This document shows positions 2,137 through 13,141 of a stretch of 13,217 nucleotides of DNA, in pieces; positions within the stretch are counted from its first letter, which is position 1; every line of letters starts with the position of its first letter. The position numbers and the translations under genes were made by a program. The notes beneath the pieces were generated by a model. It was not told where the DNA came from. It worked only from the letters and a program-made list of their open reading frames with translations, and did not search any database. Origin of the DNA: Lachnospiraceae bacterium AM48-27BH (GTDB lineage: Bacteria; Bacillota; Clostridia; Lachnospirales; Lachnospiraceae); contig QUFC01000070.1 of NCBI GenBank assembly GCA_003478355.1, positions 1 to 13,217 of the forward strand, written 5' to 3'.

Positions 2137-2165
2137 TTGACAACCATGAAAAGCAGGAGTAGAAT
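2137..2165 (+). promoter_or_regulatory. SigA-type promoter of the met leader and metNIQ
   Basis: TTGACA at 2137-2142 and TAGAAT at 2160-2165 are separated by 17 bp, a near-consensus vegetative promoter. Transcription would start near 2172. The mini-ORF, the attenuator hairpin and metN follow on the same strand. Confidence 0.78.
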
Positions 2166-2219
2166 ACGCCATAAGAAATCCTAGTAATTTGATGGGGAAT
2201 TAAAACAGGAGGTACAGAT

Positions 2220-2339
2220 ATGTACAATTCAAAATCCATGATGATGAATATGTGTATGATGTGTGGCATGTGTTTCATGTGCTGTATGTTCATGTGCAAA
2301 AAATCAAGTGGAATTGAGTCGTATGGACTGTGCTTTTAA
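2220..2339 (+). CDS. Met/Cys-rich leader peptide upstream of metNIQ
   Basis: This is a 39-codon reading frame with an ideal ribosome binding site, AGGAGG at 2207-2212, seven bases before ATG 2220. Eleven codons are Met and seven are Cys. They are concentrated in residues 7-26, where stretches such as MCMMCGMCFMCCMFMC read almost only Met and Cys. The tail contains KKSSGIESYG and ends CF. It lies between a strong promoter and a terminator hairpin directly before metN. A Met-rich frame placed before a methionine transporter and a terminator is what ribosome-mediated attenuation would need: scarce charged Met-tRNA would stall the ribosome on the Met run. No known family is recognised. The alternative is a small metal-binding peptide, since Met and Cys also bind copper. 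That the frame is translated is inferred from the ribosome binding site and its composition. Confidence 0.75.
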   Translation: MYNSKSMMMNMCMMCGMCFMCCMFMCKKSSGIESYGLCF

Positions 2340-2399
2340 GAATCTGCTGAAGAAGGCAATCTGCTGGATCAGAAAAGAATGAGATATAGAAAGCCGCAG
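2328..2399 (+). promoter_or_regulatory. Possible antiterminator pairing in the met leader
   Basis: CTGTGCTTT at 2328-2336, the last codons of the leader frame, can pair with AAAGC (2390-2394) and GCAG (2396-2399), leaving C2395 bulged. That gives nine pairs, one of them G-U, and uses the ascending arm of the terminator. A ribosome stalled on the Met run (up to about 2294) leaves 2328-2336 free. One that reaches the stop codon at 2337 covers it. I found this pairing by eye and it is weaker than the terminator stem. Confidence 0.35.
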
Positions 2400-2422
2400 G
2401 TCTATAAGACTTGCGGCTTTTT
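2390..2422 (+). terminator. Intrinsic terminator (attenuator) before metN
   Basis: AAAGCCGCAGGTCT (2390-2403) pairs with AGACTTGCGGCTTT (2407-2420) across a three-base ATA loop, 14 pairs with one G-U. A run of five T at 2418-2422 overlaps the stem end. Only 40 bases lie between this hairpin and the metN start, with no recognisable promoter in them. Transcription of metNIQ must therefore read through it, so it is an attenuator rather than the end of a separate gene. Confidence 0.82.
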
Positions 2423-2462
2423 GCATAACAGAAAAGTCCGAGTGGATAATTTAGGAGGAAGT

Positions 2463-3476
2463 ATGGAACAGCCAATCATCCAGATCAGAAATCTGGGAAA
2501 GGAATTTAAAACAGCCAATGGCCCGGTGAGAGCATTAAACGATATCAACCTGGATATCAATCAGGGAGAGATTTTTGGTATCATCGGTCTTAGCGGTGCA
2601 GGAAAAAGTACTCTGGTGCGATGTATCAATTATCTGGAGGTACCGACAGAGGGTGAGGTGTTATTTGAGGGACAGAGTCTTTCAGCGATGAGCGGGGCAG
2701 AGCTTCGCAAGGCAAGACGGTCCATGGGCATGATCTTCCAGCAGTTTAATCTGCTGGCACAGAGAAATGTCATTGGAAATGTCTGTTTCCCAATGGAGTT
2801 GGCAGGTGTGCCAAAGAAGGAAGCCAGAGAACGTGCGATGGAGCTTTTAAAGACCGTAGGACTGGAAGATCGTGCGAAAGCGTATCCGGCACAGTTATCG
2901 GGTGGTCAGAAGCAGAGAGTTGCTATTGCAAGAGCATTAGCCACGAATCCGAAAGTAATCCTTTGTGATGAGGCAACCAGTGCCCTGGATCCCAATACAA
3001 CCAAATCGATTCTGGCACTGTTAAAAGAAATCAATAAAAATTTAGGTGTGACTGTGATCGTGATCACTCACGAGATGGCAGTGATTGAAGCAATCTGTGA
3101 CCGGGTGGCAATCATTGACCAGAGCCATATCGCAGAAGTGGGAACTGTTTCTGAGATCTTCTCCGAGCCCAAATCCCAGATCGGCCGCCAGCTGATCTTA
3201 GGAGATGCCGTGAAGCACGTTTCCTTCGGAACATCCAGACAGATCCGTCTGATCTTTGACGGAAGAGAGTCTTCAGAACCGGTAATTTCCAATCTGGTTC
3301 TGGCATGTAAGGTTCCGGTGAATATCATGTATGCATCTACTACCGATGTGAATGGCAAGGCAATGGGTCAGATGATCATCCAGCTTCCAGAAGAGGAGGC
3401 CGATGCAGACCGGGTGATTCATTATCTGAAAACCGTGAAAATCGCATATGAGGAGGTAACTAGTCATGAGCTTTGA
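2463..3476 (+). CDS. metN: Methionine ABC transporter ATP-binding protein MetN
   Basis: The protein has 337 residues. It is the ATPase that drives methionine import through MetI, with substrate delivered by MetQ, on the inner face of the membrane. ABC motifs are complete: Walker A GLSGAGKST (42-50), Q-loop FQQFNLL (92-98), signature LSGGQ (145-149), Walker B VILCDEATSALD (165-176) with Glu170, and the switch His203. After about residue 262 comes a NIL domain (to 337), which in MetN binds cytoplasmic methionine and shuts the transporter down (trans-inhibition). This domain separates MetN from general amino-acid ATPases. I start it at ATG 2463 with AGGAGG at 2453-2458. An in-frame upstream start is rejected because it would begin before the terminator hairpin. 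The gene overlaps metI by 11 bases. Confidence 0.96.
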   Translation: MEQPIIQIRNLGKEFKTANGPVRALNDINLDINQGEIFGIIGLSGAGKSTLVRCINYLEVPTEGEVLFEGQSLSAMSGAELRKARRSMGMIFQQFNLLAQRNVIGNVCFPMELAGVPKKEARERAMELLKTVGLEDRAKAYPAQLSGGQKQRVAIARALATNPKVILCDEATSALDPNTTKSILALLKEINKNLGVTVIVITHEMAVIEAICDRVAIIDQSHIAEVGTVSEIFSEPKSQIGRQLILGDAVKHVSFGTSRQIRLIFDGRESSEPVISNLVLACKVPVNIMYASTTDVNGKAMGQMIIQLPEEEADADRVIHYLKTVKIAYEEVTSHEL

Positions 3477-4131
3477 TGCATCAACCATTGCAATGTTAAA
3501 AACCGGAATCTGGGAGACTGTCTATATGACGATGCTTTCCTCTTTCCTGGCTTATGTGATCGGTCTTCCATTGGGCGTGATTCTGGTGGTGACCGATGAG
3601 GGCGGATTTTATCCGATTCCATGGCTTCAGAAGATTTTGGGATTGGTGATCAACCTGCTTCGCTCAGTTCCATTTCTGATTCTGTTATTTATTGTGCTTC
3701 CGCTTTCTAAGATCGTCATCGGAACCCGTATCGGTTCTCCGGCAATGATCATTCCATTGACCATTGCGGCAGCACCTTATGTGGCGCGAGTGGTAGAGTC
3801 CTCTTTCCGTGAGATTGATGCCGGTGTGATCGAAGCGGCAAAATCCATGGGTGCTTCTACCTGGCAGATCATCTGGAAGGTGCTTCTTCCAGAGTGTAAG
3901 CCTTCTTTATTAGTAGGAGCTGCACTGGCAGTCACTACCATTTTGAGTTACTCTGCGATGGCTGGATTTACCGGAGGAGGCGGCCTTGGCGCCATTGCCA
4001 TCAACTACGGTTATTACCGTTATCAGCCAGCCCTCATGTGGGTTGCAGTCGTACTGCTGGTGGTTTTGGTTCAGATCATTCAGGAGATCGGCATGAGATT
4101 TTCCAAGGCGGGAGATAAGAGAATCCGATAA
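3466..4131 (+). CDS. metI: Methionine ABC transporter permease MetI
   Basis: The 221-residue protein is an integral membrane permease with about five membrane segments, matching MetI in length. The start region reads MSFDASTIAMLKTGIWETVY. The coupling EAA loop is visible from Glu123 (EAAKSMGAS) to the LP at 141-142, and is the part that contacts MetN. Segments at about 17-42, 56-80, 93-111, 146-170 and 185-208 are strongly hydrophobic. Start ATG 3466 follows AGGAGG at 3451-3456 and lies within the end of metN, so the two are probably translationally coupled. A gap of 76 bases, holding a hairpin, separates it from metQ. Methionine, possibly including D-methionine, is the expected substrate. 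Confidence 0.95.
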   Translation: MSFDASTIAMLKTGIWETVYMTMLSSFLAYVIGLPLGVILVVTDEGGFYPIPWLQKILGLVINLLRSVPFLILLFIVLPLSKIVIGTRIGSPAMIIPLTIAAAPYVARVVESSFREIDAGVIEAAKSMGASTWQIIWKVLLPECKPSLLVGAALAVTTILSYSAMAGFTGGGGLGAIAINYGYYRYQPALMWVAVVLLVVLVQIIQEIGMRFSKAGDKRIR

Positions 4132-4207: not shown

Positions 4208-5116
4208 ATGAAAAAGACATTTGGAGTAGTTACAGCAGCAGTTTTAGCAGCAGCGAGTATTGCAGGATGCTCTGGAAACAAAGCGGCAGAGACCACAGCA
4301 GCAGAGACCACAGCAGCAGAAACTACAGCAGCTGAGAGCAGCGCAGCAGAAACAACAGCAGAGGAAACAACAGCATCTTCTGGAGAGTTACAGAAGATCG
4401 TAGTTGGCGCAAGCCCGGCACCACATGCTGAAATCTTAAAGGCAGCAAATGATGTATTAAAAGAAAAAGGTTATGAGTTGGAGATCAAAGAGTATGTAGA
4501 TTACATTCAGCCAAACCTGGCACTGGAGTCCGGCGATCTGGATGCAAACTATTTCCAGCACCTGCCATACCTGGAGTCCTTCAATAAGGAGAACGGTACT
4601 AATTTAGTATCTGCAGGTGCCATCCACTATGAGCCATTTGGCGTTTATGCAGGTAAGACAACTTCTCTGGATGAGTTACAGGACGGTGCAACCATCGCAG
4701 TACCAAATGATACCACCAACGAGGCAAGAGCGCTTCTTTTGTTAGAGGCACAGGGCCTGATCAAGTTAAAAGAGGATGCTGGTTTAACTGCAACGAAGAA
4801 TGACATTGTTGAGAATCCAAAGAACCTTCAGTTGTATGAGGTTGAGGCTGCTCAGCTTCCACGTGTGATCGGTGATGTGGATGTAGCAGTTATCAACGGT
4901 AACTATGCAATCGAGGCTGGTTACAAAGTATCTGACGCACTGGCAGTTGAGGCTTCTGACTCCTTAGCAGCAACAACCTATGGTAACGTAGTAGCAGTTC
5001 GCGCAGGCGAGGAAAATGATCCGGCTATCCAGGCACTGATTGAGGCACTGACCAGTGATGAGGTAAAAGCATTCATTGAGAGCACTTACGATGGAGCAGT
5101 TGTTCCGTTATTCTAA
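4208..5116 (+). CDS. metQ: Methionine-binding lipoprotein MetQ (NlpA family)
   Basis: The 302-residue protein begins with a lipoprotein signal peptide; the lipobox SIAGC puts the lipidated Cys at residue 21. Residues 22-60 form a flexible linker of AETTA units, and the NlpA fold follows from about residue 62 (KIVVGASPAPHAEIL). Binding-site motifs of MetQ are present: FQHLPY near 116-121, PNDTTNEARAL at 166-176 with Arg174, and VINGNYAI further on. The protein sits on the outer face of the membrane and hands methionine to MetI. ATG 4208 follows AGAGGAG at 4191-4197. The terminator at 5138-5171 ends the operon. MetQ homologues can prefer D-methionine or related compounds, and the exact ligand is not resolved here. 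Confidence 0.94.
   Translation: MKKTFGVVTAAVLAAASIAGCSGNKAAETTAAETTAAETTAAESSAAETTAEETTASSGELQKIVVGASPAPHAEILKAANDVLKEKGYELEIKEYVDYIQPNLALESGDLDANYFQHLPYLESFNKENGTNLVSAGAIHYEPFGVYAGKTTSLDELQDGATIAVPNDTTNEARALLLLEAQGLIKLKEDAGLTATKNDIVENPKNLQLYEVEAAQLPRVIGDVDVAVINGNYAIEAGYKVSDALAVEASDSLAATTYGNVVAVRAGEENDPAIQALIEALTSDEVKAFIESTYDGAVVPLF
4286..4375 (+). repeat. Tandem 15-bp repeat encoding the MetQ AETTA linker
   Basis: Six 15-base units encode AETTA three times, then AESSA, AETTA and EETTA (residues 27-56 of MetQ). The units are similar at DNA level, the first two almost identical, so the copy number may vary by slippage. The linker is Thr-rich and acidic. Confidence 0.75.
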
Positions 5117-6610: not shown

Positions 6611-6685
6611 AAAGCAAAAATCCAATCAGCGAAGCTGATCTGGAATGGATTTTTGCACATAACTATGAAGGTACTGAATAGTTAC
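6605..6685. repeat. Palindromic intergenic repeat A, copy 2
   Basis: This is the second copy of the 28-107 repeat, 81 bp. The outer pair GCAAAAATCC (6614-6623) and GGATTTTTGC (6647-6656) encloses ATCAGC (6625-6630) and GCTGAT (6634-6639); then TAACTAT (6660-6666) pairs with ATAGTTA (6678-6684). It overlaps the stop codon of ymxH and may also work as its terminator. Confidence 0.8.
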
Positions 6686-12082: not shown

Positions 12083-13141
12083 ATGTCCCAGACATTGGAA
12101 GATGCGGAAAAATTATTTCAACTGCTTCCGCATGTACGACTTGGATTTTTTCCAACGCCATTTTATAAGCTGGATCGGCTTTCTGAGAAGCTTGGCGTGA
12201 ATCTGTACATCAAAAGGGATGATTTTACCGGTATGAATCTGTTCGGAGGCAATAAGATCCGGAAACTGGAATACCTGTTAGGTGAGGCAAAGGCATTCGG
12301 ATGTGAGTATGCCATTACTTATGGTGCCACACAGTCTAATCATGCCATGGAGACAGCAGCGGCCTGCCGGAGATGTGGGATCAAGCCGATCCTGTATCTG
12401 ACAGCAGTGGTAGAGCCAGATGAGAAGGATGTCCGGGCGAATCTGCTGCTGGATAAGATCCTGGGTGTGGAGCTGCATATTGTGGACATCAAGCCTGGTG
12501 AGACCGAGGATGAGGCGGAGGCCAGATCCTTTCAGATGGGTGCAGAACGGGCGGCAGAGTTAAATGCTTCTGGTCATCCCTGTTATGACATTCCCATGGG
12601 TGGTGCCAGTGTGACTGGTTCGGTTGGATTTGCCCATGGTTTTGTGGAATTCCAGAGACAGTTAGAGGAGACTGGAATCAGAGCAGATTATATTTTTCAT
12701 GCGACTGGTACCGGCGGAACCATGGCTGGTCTGGCAGCAGGAAGAAAGCTGGTAGAGAATCCGGCAAAGATCGTATCTGTAACAGTAAGTTATAAAAATG
12801 AAGCCTATGTGAAAAAAGTAGAGGATCTGGCAAATGAGGTGCTAAAAAAGATTGACAGTCCCCTGCGGGTGACAAGAGAGGATCTGTGTATTGATACTGG
12901 GTATTTTGCTCCAGGCTATGAACAGCCAAACGAAGCGGCAAGTGAGGCGATCAGGCTTCTTGCCCGCACAGAAGGATTGTTTGTGGATCCTGTATACACA
13001 GGAAAGGCTCTGGCTGGCCTGATCGACTATGTACGCAGTGGAAAGGTACCGCAGGGAAGCAATGTGGTATTCTGGCACACTGGAGGCGCTACGGCATTAT
13101 TTGCGGAGCAGGAGATCCTGGGAGATTTATATCAGATGTGA
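12083..13141 (+). CDS. dcyD: D-cysteine desulfhydrase-like PLP enzyme
   Basis: The 352-residue protein belongs to the ACC deaminase/D-cysteine desulfhydrase branch of fold-type II PLP enzymes. LFGGNKIRKLEYLL places the PLP lysine at Lys58. ATQSNH (82-87) and the Gly-rich ATGTGGTMAG (207-216) hold substrate and PLP phosphate. The position occupied by Glu in ACC deaminases (DPVYEGK) is DPVYTGK here (Tyr305, Thr306), and the later HLGG Leu is HTGG (Thr333). Thr or Ser at these sites marks desulfhydrases, so the likely reaction is D-cysteine to pyruvate, ammonia and hydrogen sulfide. It starts at ATG 12083 with GGGGAG at 12070-12075. Its last codons lie in an inverted repeat with bases to the right. 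The symbol dcyD is tentative. Confidence 0.82.
   Translation: MSQTLEDAEKLFQLLPHVRLGFFPTPFYKLDRLSEKLGVNLYIKRDDFTGMNLFGGNKIRKLEYLLGEAKAFGCEYAITYGATQSNHAMETAAACRRCGIKPILYLTAVVEPDEKDVRANLLLDKILGVELHIVDIKPGETEDEAEARSFQMGAERAAELNASGHPCYDIPMGGASVTGSVGFAHGFVEFQRQLEETGIRADYIFHATGTGGTMAGLAAGRKLVENPAKIVSVTVSYKNEAYVKKVEDLANEVLKKIDSPLRVTREDLCIDTGYFAPGYEQPNEAASEAIRLLARTEGLFVDPVYTGKALAGLIDYVRSGKVPQGSNVVFWHTGGATALFAEQEILGDLYQM

Follow-up and report, generated by a model that had tools for sequence, protein, structure and literature searches.

The stretch of DNA analysed here (hereafter the window; 13,217 nucleotides from Lachnospiraceae bacterium AM48-27BH, contig QUFC01000070.1) carries a metNIQ operon for methionine uptake. 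The order promoter, Met-rich open reading frame (ORF), terminator and metN was set out in a preliminary description of the sequence, and all four were re-found in the window. The features of the locus are listed below in window coordinates, with the RNA regions numbered according to their predicted pairing.

2137-2165, + strand: promoter TTGACA-17-TAGAAT, matching the consensus at 11 of 12 positions, with the transcription start expected near 2172
2177-2201, no strand assigned: imperfect palindrome AATCCTAG-N9-GGGGAATT over the start region, a candidate repressor operator
2207-2212, + strand: Shine-Dalgarno sequence AGGAGG of the leader ORF, 7 nt ahead of the ATG
2220-2339, + strand: leader ORF MYNSKSMMMNMCMMCGMCFMCCMFMCKKSSGIESYGLCF, 39 codons with 11 Met and 7 Cys, stop codon at 2337-2339
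2222-2245, + strand: region 1 (codons 1-9), predicted to pair with 2303-2324 at -16.4 kcal/mol (z -1.6)
2303-2337, + strand: region 2, over the ORF end; 2303-2324 pairs with region 1 and 2317-2337 with region 3
2389-2411, + strand: region 3 (5' arm and loop of the terminator plus the first bases of its 3' arm), predicted antiterminator with 2317-2337
2387-2423, + strand: intrinsic terminator (3:4), -24.7 kcal/mol, z -8.8, equalled by none of 200 shuffles
2463-3476, + strand: metN, ATPase of a methionine ABC transporter with a C-terminal NIL domain; Shine-Dalgarno sequence AGGAGG at 2453-2458
3466-4131, + strand: metI, permease (NF008049 at 210.3 bits, cut-off 212; PF00528, BPD_transp_1, over its cut-off)
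4208-5116, + strand: metQ, substrate-binding lipoprotein (TIGR00363 at 192 bits, cut-off 228.85; PF03180, NlpA lipoprotein, at 308.8 bits, over its cut-off)

For metN, the best NCBIfam model is TIGR02314, at 354 bits and thus under the equivalog cut-off of 499.7, and PF00005 (ABC_tran) and PF09383 (NIL) both score over their cut-offs. The window MetN is up to 85% identical to MetN of Lachnospiraceae records, and MetQ matches solved chains that are themselves named MetQ (4got, 4yah, 6cvl). A repetitive AAETT linker follows the lipoprotein signal of MetQ (window 4280-4375).

The counts first given for the leader ORF, 39 codons with 11 Met and 7 Cys behind a good ribosome binding site, are confirmed, and the expectation that relatives would likewise carry a Met-rich ORF before metN is borne out. 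Defining a leader as an ORF that starts with ATG, has no more than 60 codons and at least 6 Met, and lies no more than 700 nt from metN, we find one at the same place in 64 of the best 80 of at least 553 MetN relatives; these 80 are close relatives and not an even sample. Together with the window, these loci make up our set of 65 leaders, 64 of which have a Shine-Dalgarno-like sequence ahead of them. In a separate chance test (ORFs of 10-60 codons, at least 4 internal Met and at least 12% Met), an ORF preceded by a Shine-Dalgarno sequence was present in 52 of the same 80 upstream regions (best 80 of at least 553), as against 1 of 1016 control segments, these being 700-nt segments from the same loci and mostly coding DNA; when the Shine-Dalgarno requirement was lifted, 20 of the 1016 controls contained a Met-rich ORF. 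The frame is open over up to 27 codons in all 65 leaders (by selection), in none of them in frame +1, and in 43 in frame +2.

Met codons are concentrated at region 1, as is characteristic of amino-acid leader attenuators: codons 2-15 contain on average 4.65 Met across the 65 leaders, and never fewer than 3. Alignment of 36 leaders yields the consensus MxxxxxMQMNMxMMxGMxMMCRMFxCxK, in which C21 is invariant, and the C-termini of the peptides vary freely among loci. A comparison of the leader peptide with Pfam and NCBIfam returned no family at E<=0.1.

Sixteen of the 80 loci lack a called leader, and in nine of these 16 (L001, L026, L028, L035, L041, L042, L044, L046, L063; again among the best 80 of at least 553) an Rfam T-box stands at the leader's place. 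As for the other loci, little sequence lies upstream of metN before the contig end in L022 and L033, metN follows closely after another open frame in L006, L070 and L071, and L065 has a leader with 5 Met, under the cut-off of at least 6. No leader ORF was found upstream of metN in L048, which completes the 16, nor in L115, yet promoter, palindrome and terminator are retained at both loci.

The promoter at 2137-2165 is the top scorer among 29 promoter-like matches in the window. Across relatives, 59 of 61 leader loci have TTGAC[AG] in the 220 nt ahead of the ORF, against 6.4 expected, and a promoter matching at least 10 of 12 positions lies ahead of the ORF in 61 of the 63 leader loci examined (window included). 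Between terminator and metN, we find no promoter-like match of at least 9/12 on the + strand of the window and none of at least 10/12 in any of the 63 leader loci (window included), 15 of these gaps being scored as 0 and some of them being too short to hold one. The earlier statement that metN has no promoter of its own 3' of the terminator consequently stands in the window and across the leader loci alike. In four loci (L024, L036, L058, L077) a long GC-rich, insert-like sequence widens the gap between terminator and metN to as much as 262 nt, and these widened gaps are likewise free of a promoter of 10/12.

The palindrome at 2177-2201 has a form that we take to resemble an Rrf2/CymR-type operator. 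A stricter palindrome of the ATTCCTA..TAGGAAT type occurs near the transcription start, 5' of the leader, in 7 of the 65 leader loci (L037, L039, L043, L049, L073, L075, L079), where about 0.1 would be expected; it matches neither the window's own site nor any of the 9 T-box loci. The presence of such sites over the start region suggests that a second control may act on the same promoter. At the gathering score, no Rfam family is found in the window, and the T-box (RF00230) and SAM families (RF00162 or other) give no match there even at E<=1. The initial remark that neither an S-box nor a T-box is present therefore holds for the window, although T-boxes do precede metN in some of its close relatives.

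A terminator of 14 bp had been reported between the ORF and metN. The hairpin is indeed present, whereas its length differs, the computed fold having 17 pairs and a 3-nt loop; the figure depends on how pairs are counted, because the U tract also pairs in the fold. Two pattern scans missed this terminator, which was placed by hand and verified by folding. Among the 65 leaders, a hairpin with a T-run was located by scan between ORF and metN in 60; the terminators of the window, L068, L069, L072 and L079 were placed by hand, and in L024 and L038 the position was revised by hand.

Within the window, the predicted antiterminator (2:3) comprises 20 bp at -20.7 kcal/mol (z -3.5). This is equalled in 8 of 2000 shuffles and by 1 of 348 further 74-nt segments of the window, and 2317-2337 is the best partner of region 3 anywhere within 2172-2385. 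The 1:2 helix, by itself, is weak here (z -1.6) and shares only 8 nt with the arm of 2:3. When the RNA was folded as it would stand before region 4 exists, with the 12 nt behind the A-site codon treated as covered by a stalled ribosome, the antiterminator was optimal if the A site held codon 13 or 14, and a different fold was optimal if it held codon 7, 8, 9 or 11. The leader of the window probably works chiefly by having region 2 masked at the stop codon, the 1:2 helix acting as a helper.

The pairing layout was first suggested by folding 16 loci singly. In these, region 1 corresponds to the codons for MQMN (CCAUGCAGAUGAA) and pairs with UUCAUYUGUAUGG just 3' of the stop, the codons for GMxMMCR form an inner hairpin, and in several of the loci UGUAUGGAUUGUGA of the region 2 stretch pairs with UCGCAAGUCUGUGCA of the terminator 5' arm. 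By calculation this is the classical arrangement, in which the 5' part of the ORF pairs with region 2 and region 2 pairs alternatively with region 3; the mutually exclusive 1:2, 2:3 and 3:4 helices are all present, 1:2 being weak in the window alone.

Further support comes from comparing each locus with its relatives. In 44 dereplicated loci from the 65, own partners of 1:2 pair at a mean of -22.9 kcal/mol as against -19.7 for partners swapped between loci (z -7.1, equalled in 0 of 20000 permutations), and those of 2:3 at -13.6 against -12.6 (z -3.4, 13 of 20000); measured against a shuffled partner, z falls below -2 for 1:2 in 33 of the 44 loci and for 2:3 in 15 only. Base-pair counts cover 51 loci, which form 38 distinct rows; 10 loci of the window type were set aside and 4 more skipped. 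Here, standard pairs make up 87% of 1:2 against 30-46% in slid registers, and 82% of 2:3 against 27-50%, and these paired fractions were equalled in 18 of 2000 column shuffles for 1:2 and in 331 of 2000 for 2:3. Base changes on both sides of a pair were also considered as proof of pairing and dropped: there are 6 such cells per helix, a number that 32 (1:2) and 28 (2:3) of 2000 shuffles made without regard to relatedness also reach, and slid registers show equal numbers (up to 7 for 1:2 and up to 9 for 2:3). Few two-sided changes are to be expected where one arm serves two partners, and a clear case does exist in the Lacrimispora group, where CC to CU in region 1 accompanies GG to AG in region 2. 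Since the two-sided changes do not decide, the case for pairing is built on the paired fractions, on the comparison with swapped partners and on where the elements lie.

With regard to placement, region 2 is nearly invariant within the main clade, and its motif is recognisable (at least 12/17) in 52 of 61 loci examined. Relative to the ORF end, its start falls in the range -21 to +22 nt in all but one of these 52, despite the differing C-termini, such that the stop codon is positioned for a terminating ribosome to cover region 2; the exception is L004, at +48. Additionally, the best partner of region 3 within the leader is centred no more than 35 nt from the stop in 55 of 65 loci and elsewhere in 10, the stretch searched having a median of 157 nt, whose length alone would give somewhat under half.

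Close relatives of the window also provide natural exchanges of the leader for another device. A tree of 81 MetN rows places the window within a clade of 22 rows (support 100/97), of which 11 have leaders, 9 have T-boxes and 2 are other loci; the two rows nearest to the window (L035 and L001) both carry T-boxes. Leader and T-box have been swapped inside the window's own clade. The Rfam alignment of the L035 element is that of a full T-box, with AUG at the position expected for the specifier. The T-boxes of the leaderless relatives presumably read the same tRNA as the leader, and the occurrence of two devices at one gene, one of them a tRNA sensor, speaks for tRNA-Met as the signal. One SAM riboswitch was found somewhere in each of the 12 leader-bearing genomes examined.

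In 299 genomes of the H. hathewayi family, a profile built from the 36 leader peptides gave 14 matches at E<=0.01, one in each of 14 genomes, and every one of them lies 5' of a metN homologue. Over a class sample of 391 genomes the same profile gave 3 matches: the centre genome again, one further metN locus, and one weak match (E 0.008) without metN nearby. In searches of six genomes with a single peptide, the metN locus was the top match each time, and one genome had a second, insignificant match elsewhere.

The family also has Met leaders before metN that seem unrelated to the window's. A search of 120 of its genomes gave a MetN match at E<=1e-100 in 54, and 16 of the 54 upstream regions (two of which are shorter than 700 nt) contain a Met-rich ORF, 11 of them with a Shine-Dalgarno sequence, compared with 1.5% and 0.1% of shuffles respectively. 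Eight of these ORFs are of the window's kind (L104-L110 and L168), seven could not be aligned with it by eye (L112, L121, L128, L131, L132, L156, L159), and that of L147 looks like chance and was rejected as a leader. Ten loci were examined further: the seven non-aligning ones, two of the window's kind (L109 and L168), and L130, which had fallen short of the cut-off. Scanning located a terminator in 8 of the ten, the exceptions being L112 and L168. The end of the ORF, or the stretch behind it, pairs with the terminator 5' arm at z<=-2 in 4 loci (L109, L128, L131, L159) and weakly in 4 (L121, L130, L132, L156). The leaders of L128 and L132 resemble each other, both ending in HDxVYFPAP, and the codons for FPAP (CCTGCACC) show complementarity to GGTGCA in the terminator 5' arm, with pairing z of -2.4 and -1.2. 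A search of 20 of the 54 family loci with Rfam revealed T-boxes before metN in L103 and L117, and among the same 20, L124 has a T-box-like sequence recognised by pattern only. Judged from their sequences, the non-aligning Met leaders suggest either repeated origin or very fast divergence.

These observations very probably reflect a transcription attenuator of metNIQ that acts through the ribosome and senses the charging of elongator tRNA-Met. The conserved ORF with its Shine-Dalgarno sequence, the complementarity of the arms across loci, the terminator, the stop codon at region 2 and the replacement by T-boxes are computed features of the loci; stalling, termination, read-through and methionine as the signal are what we infer from them. 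The proposal of ribosome-mediated attenuation in response to methionine, made in the preliminary description, thus gains support at the sequence level from ORF conservation, exclusive pairing and T-box replacement, with the methionine response as the inferred part. Under the proposed mechanism, RNA polymerase would start near 2172 and a ribosome would follow on the Met-rich ORF. With ample Met-tRNA, the ribosome would reach the stop codon at 2337-2339, which lies at the end of region 2, so that on terminating it would cover region 2 (2303-2337); region 3 would then fold with region 4 and transcription would end at about 2423. If Met-tRNA were short, the ribosome would stall on the Met codons of the window leader (7, 8, 9, 11, 13, 14), keeping region 1 open and region 2 free to pair with region 3 (2389-2411), and the resulting antiterminator would block the terminator and allow metNIQ to be transcribed. 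In the event that the leader is not translated at all, 1:2 and 3:4 would form and transcription would end.

A twist of such a system is that a Met leader must initiate with the very amino acid that it senses. A starved cell should also be low in initiator fMet-tRNA, which would work against initiation on the leader and counts against an attenuator. A potential solution lies in the stacking of Met codons, if elongator tRNA runs out first, leaving a floor below which the switch fails closed. We advance this solution tentatively, together with the idea that Met leaders before metN arose more than once in Lachnospiraceae and swap with T-boxes; the combined proposal is a possible extension, falling somewhat short of probable. 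Given that methionine is the first residue of every protein, the system would allow a direct test in which the charging of elongator and of initiator tRNA-Met is read apart.

Several alternative hypotheses may explain parts of this pattern. It had been suggested that the leader senses methionine and perhaps cysteine as well, and the window does contain 7 Cys codons, two of which (12 and 15) fall within codons 2-15 and near region 1, while Cys occurs in codons 16-30 of all 65 leaders. However, codons 2-15 contain a mean of just 0.29 Cys across the 65 leaders and none in 47 of them, Cys21 falls in the inner hairpin, and a ribosome stalled far behind region 1 should free region 1, favouring 1:2 and hence termination. 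With Cys codons lying mostly away from region 1, the suggestion of cysteine is unsupported, and we regard a role for it as unlikely. Less likely again is nascent-peptide arrest of the TnaC type, in which the peptide would stall the ribosome on a ligand (methionine or SAM) and the Met codons would not be tRNA sensors. Such arrest would account for peptide positions conserved beyond Met, above all the C21 shared by the 36 leaders, yet the residues concerned are encoded by RNA that is itself paired (the MQMN codons with region 2, the GMxMMCR codons in the inner hairpin). Moreover, codon 7 is CTG rather than ATG in 7 leaders of the L003-type clade with complementarity kept (given one hand-set gap) and is CAG in L013, at the cost of one pair; C-termini differ freely, and the other Met leaders before metN have no peptide that can be aligned by eye. 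Taken together, these points make arrest by the peptide improbable.

The long hairpins within the ORF in the 16 loci folded, and the near invariance of region 2 in the main clade, could also be read as an undescribed riboswitch, that is, a structured RNA binding a ligand or protein, with the ORF as a by-product. Against this reading, 64 of 65 leaders have a Shine-Dalgarno sequence and the stop codon sits at region 2; the window is without an Rfam family at threshold, and other relatives show different sequences with the same ORF logic, all of which leaves this explanation very improbable. Clusters of Met and Cys suit Cu(I), and the leader could accordingly be a functional small protein rich in Met and Cys, such as a copper binder, made from the same transcript as metNIQ. 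A terminator separates the ORF from metN, however, and T-boxes replace the ORF in relatives, the 14 family-wide matches all lie before metN, the ends of the peptide vary and no Pfam or NCBIfam family is reached at E<=0.1. We rejected a small metal-binding protein on this context, and find it the most far-fetched of the alternatives.

The attenuator favoured here has the layout familiar from the trp, his and leu operons, in which a leader ORF rich in cognate codons is combined with exclusive 1:2, 2:3 and 3:4 helices and a stop codon at region 2. The window shares with them the cognate-rich ORF, the exclusive helices, a terminator before the operon and a stop at region 2, and differs in its amino acid (methionine, which is also the initiator), its host (Lachnospiraceae) and its target (an uptake operon). 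Leader attenuation itself is classical; methionine is the unusual input here. Methionine control in Gram-positive bacteria is usually told in terms of S-boxes and T-boxes, and gut Lachnospiraceae appear to use ribosome stalling at a methionine uptake operon, with natural sensor swaps within one clade. As the leader has no match in Pfam or NCBIfam and the RNA none in Rfam, the element could become a new Rfam entry.

The T-box (RF00230) resembles the window's leader in controlling termination ahead of a methionine gene, and occupies the same place in 9 leaderless relatives, but it binds tRNA directly with no need of a ribosome, and is absent from the window. In staphylococci the methionine T-box prefers the initiator tRNA (PMC3771891). 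Leader attenuators are on record elsewhere in Firmicutes, where a Leu-rich leader precedes ilv-leu in Staphylococcus aureus (PMC5794164) and a His leader, along with leader peptides that replace T-boxes, occurs in bacilli (PMC2965389); these resemble the window's attenuation but concern other amino acids, and no methionine leader is named in the accessible portions of either paper. A uORF and a terminator are likewise shared by the fthC motif of Streptococcus, for which methionine was suggested as the signal; that motif is suggested to act via initiation rate (tRNA-fMet) and not by way of runs of Met codons, and belongs to another gene (PMC11109978). The earlier remark that its author knew of no described case in this group agrees with our findings, insofar as the accessible open PMC literature yielded no methionine leader attenuator in Firmicutes and one prediction in Streptomyces (PMC8079986).

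That prediction, metL of Streptomyces lividans TK24, is the closest precedent found: like the window's leader it is a short ORF with Met codons ahead of metNIQ, and an attenuator was proposed from RNA-seq (PMC8079986). It differs in being leaderless and in its composition of 29 codons, among them 3 Met (one being the start), 3 Cys and 7 Thr, and the authors state that a typical Rho-independent terminator is missing (PMC8079986). A comparative study of Actinobacteria detected no conserved RNA structure ahead of methionine operons (PMC1262725).

Elsewhere in the window, the ORF at 12083-13141 encodes a PLP enzyme of the D-cysteine desulfhydrase / D-cysteate sulfo-lyase group (under the curated cut-offs), and is possibly another sulfur gene. 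Furthermore, the minus strand has two copies of a small hairpin, ATCAGCTTCGCTGAT, with T-rich sequence behind it, at 48-62 and 6624-6640.
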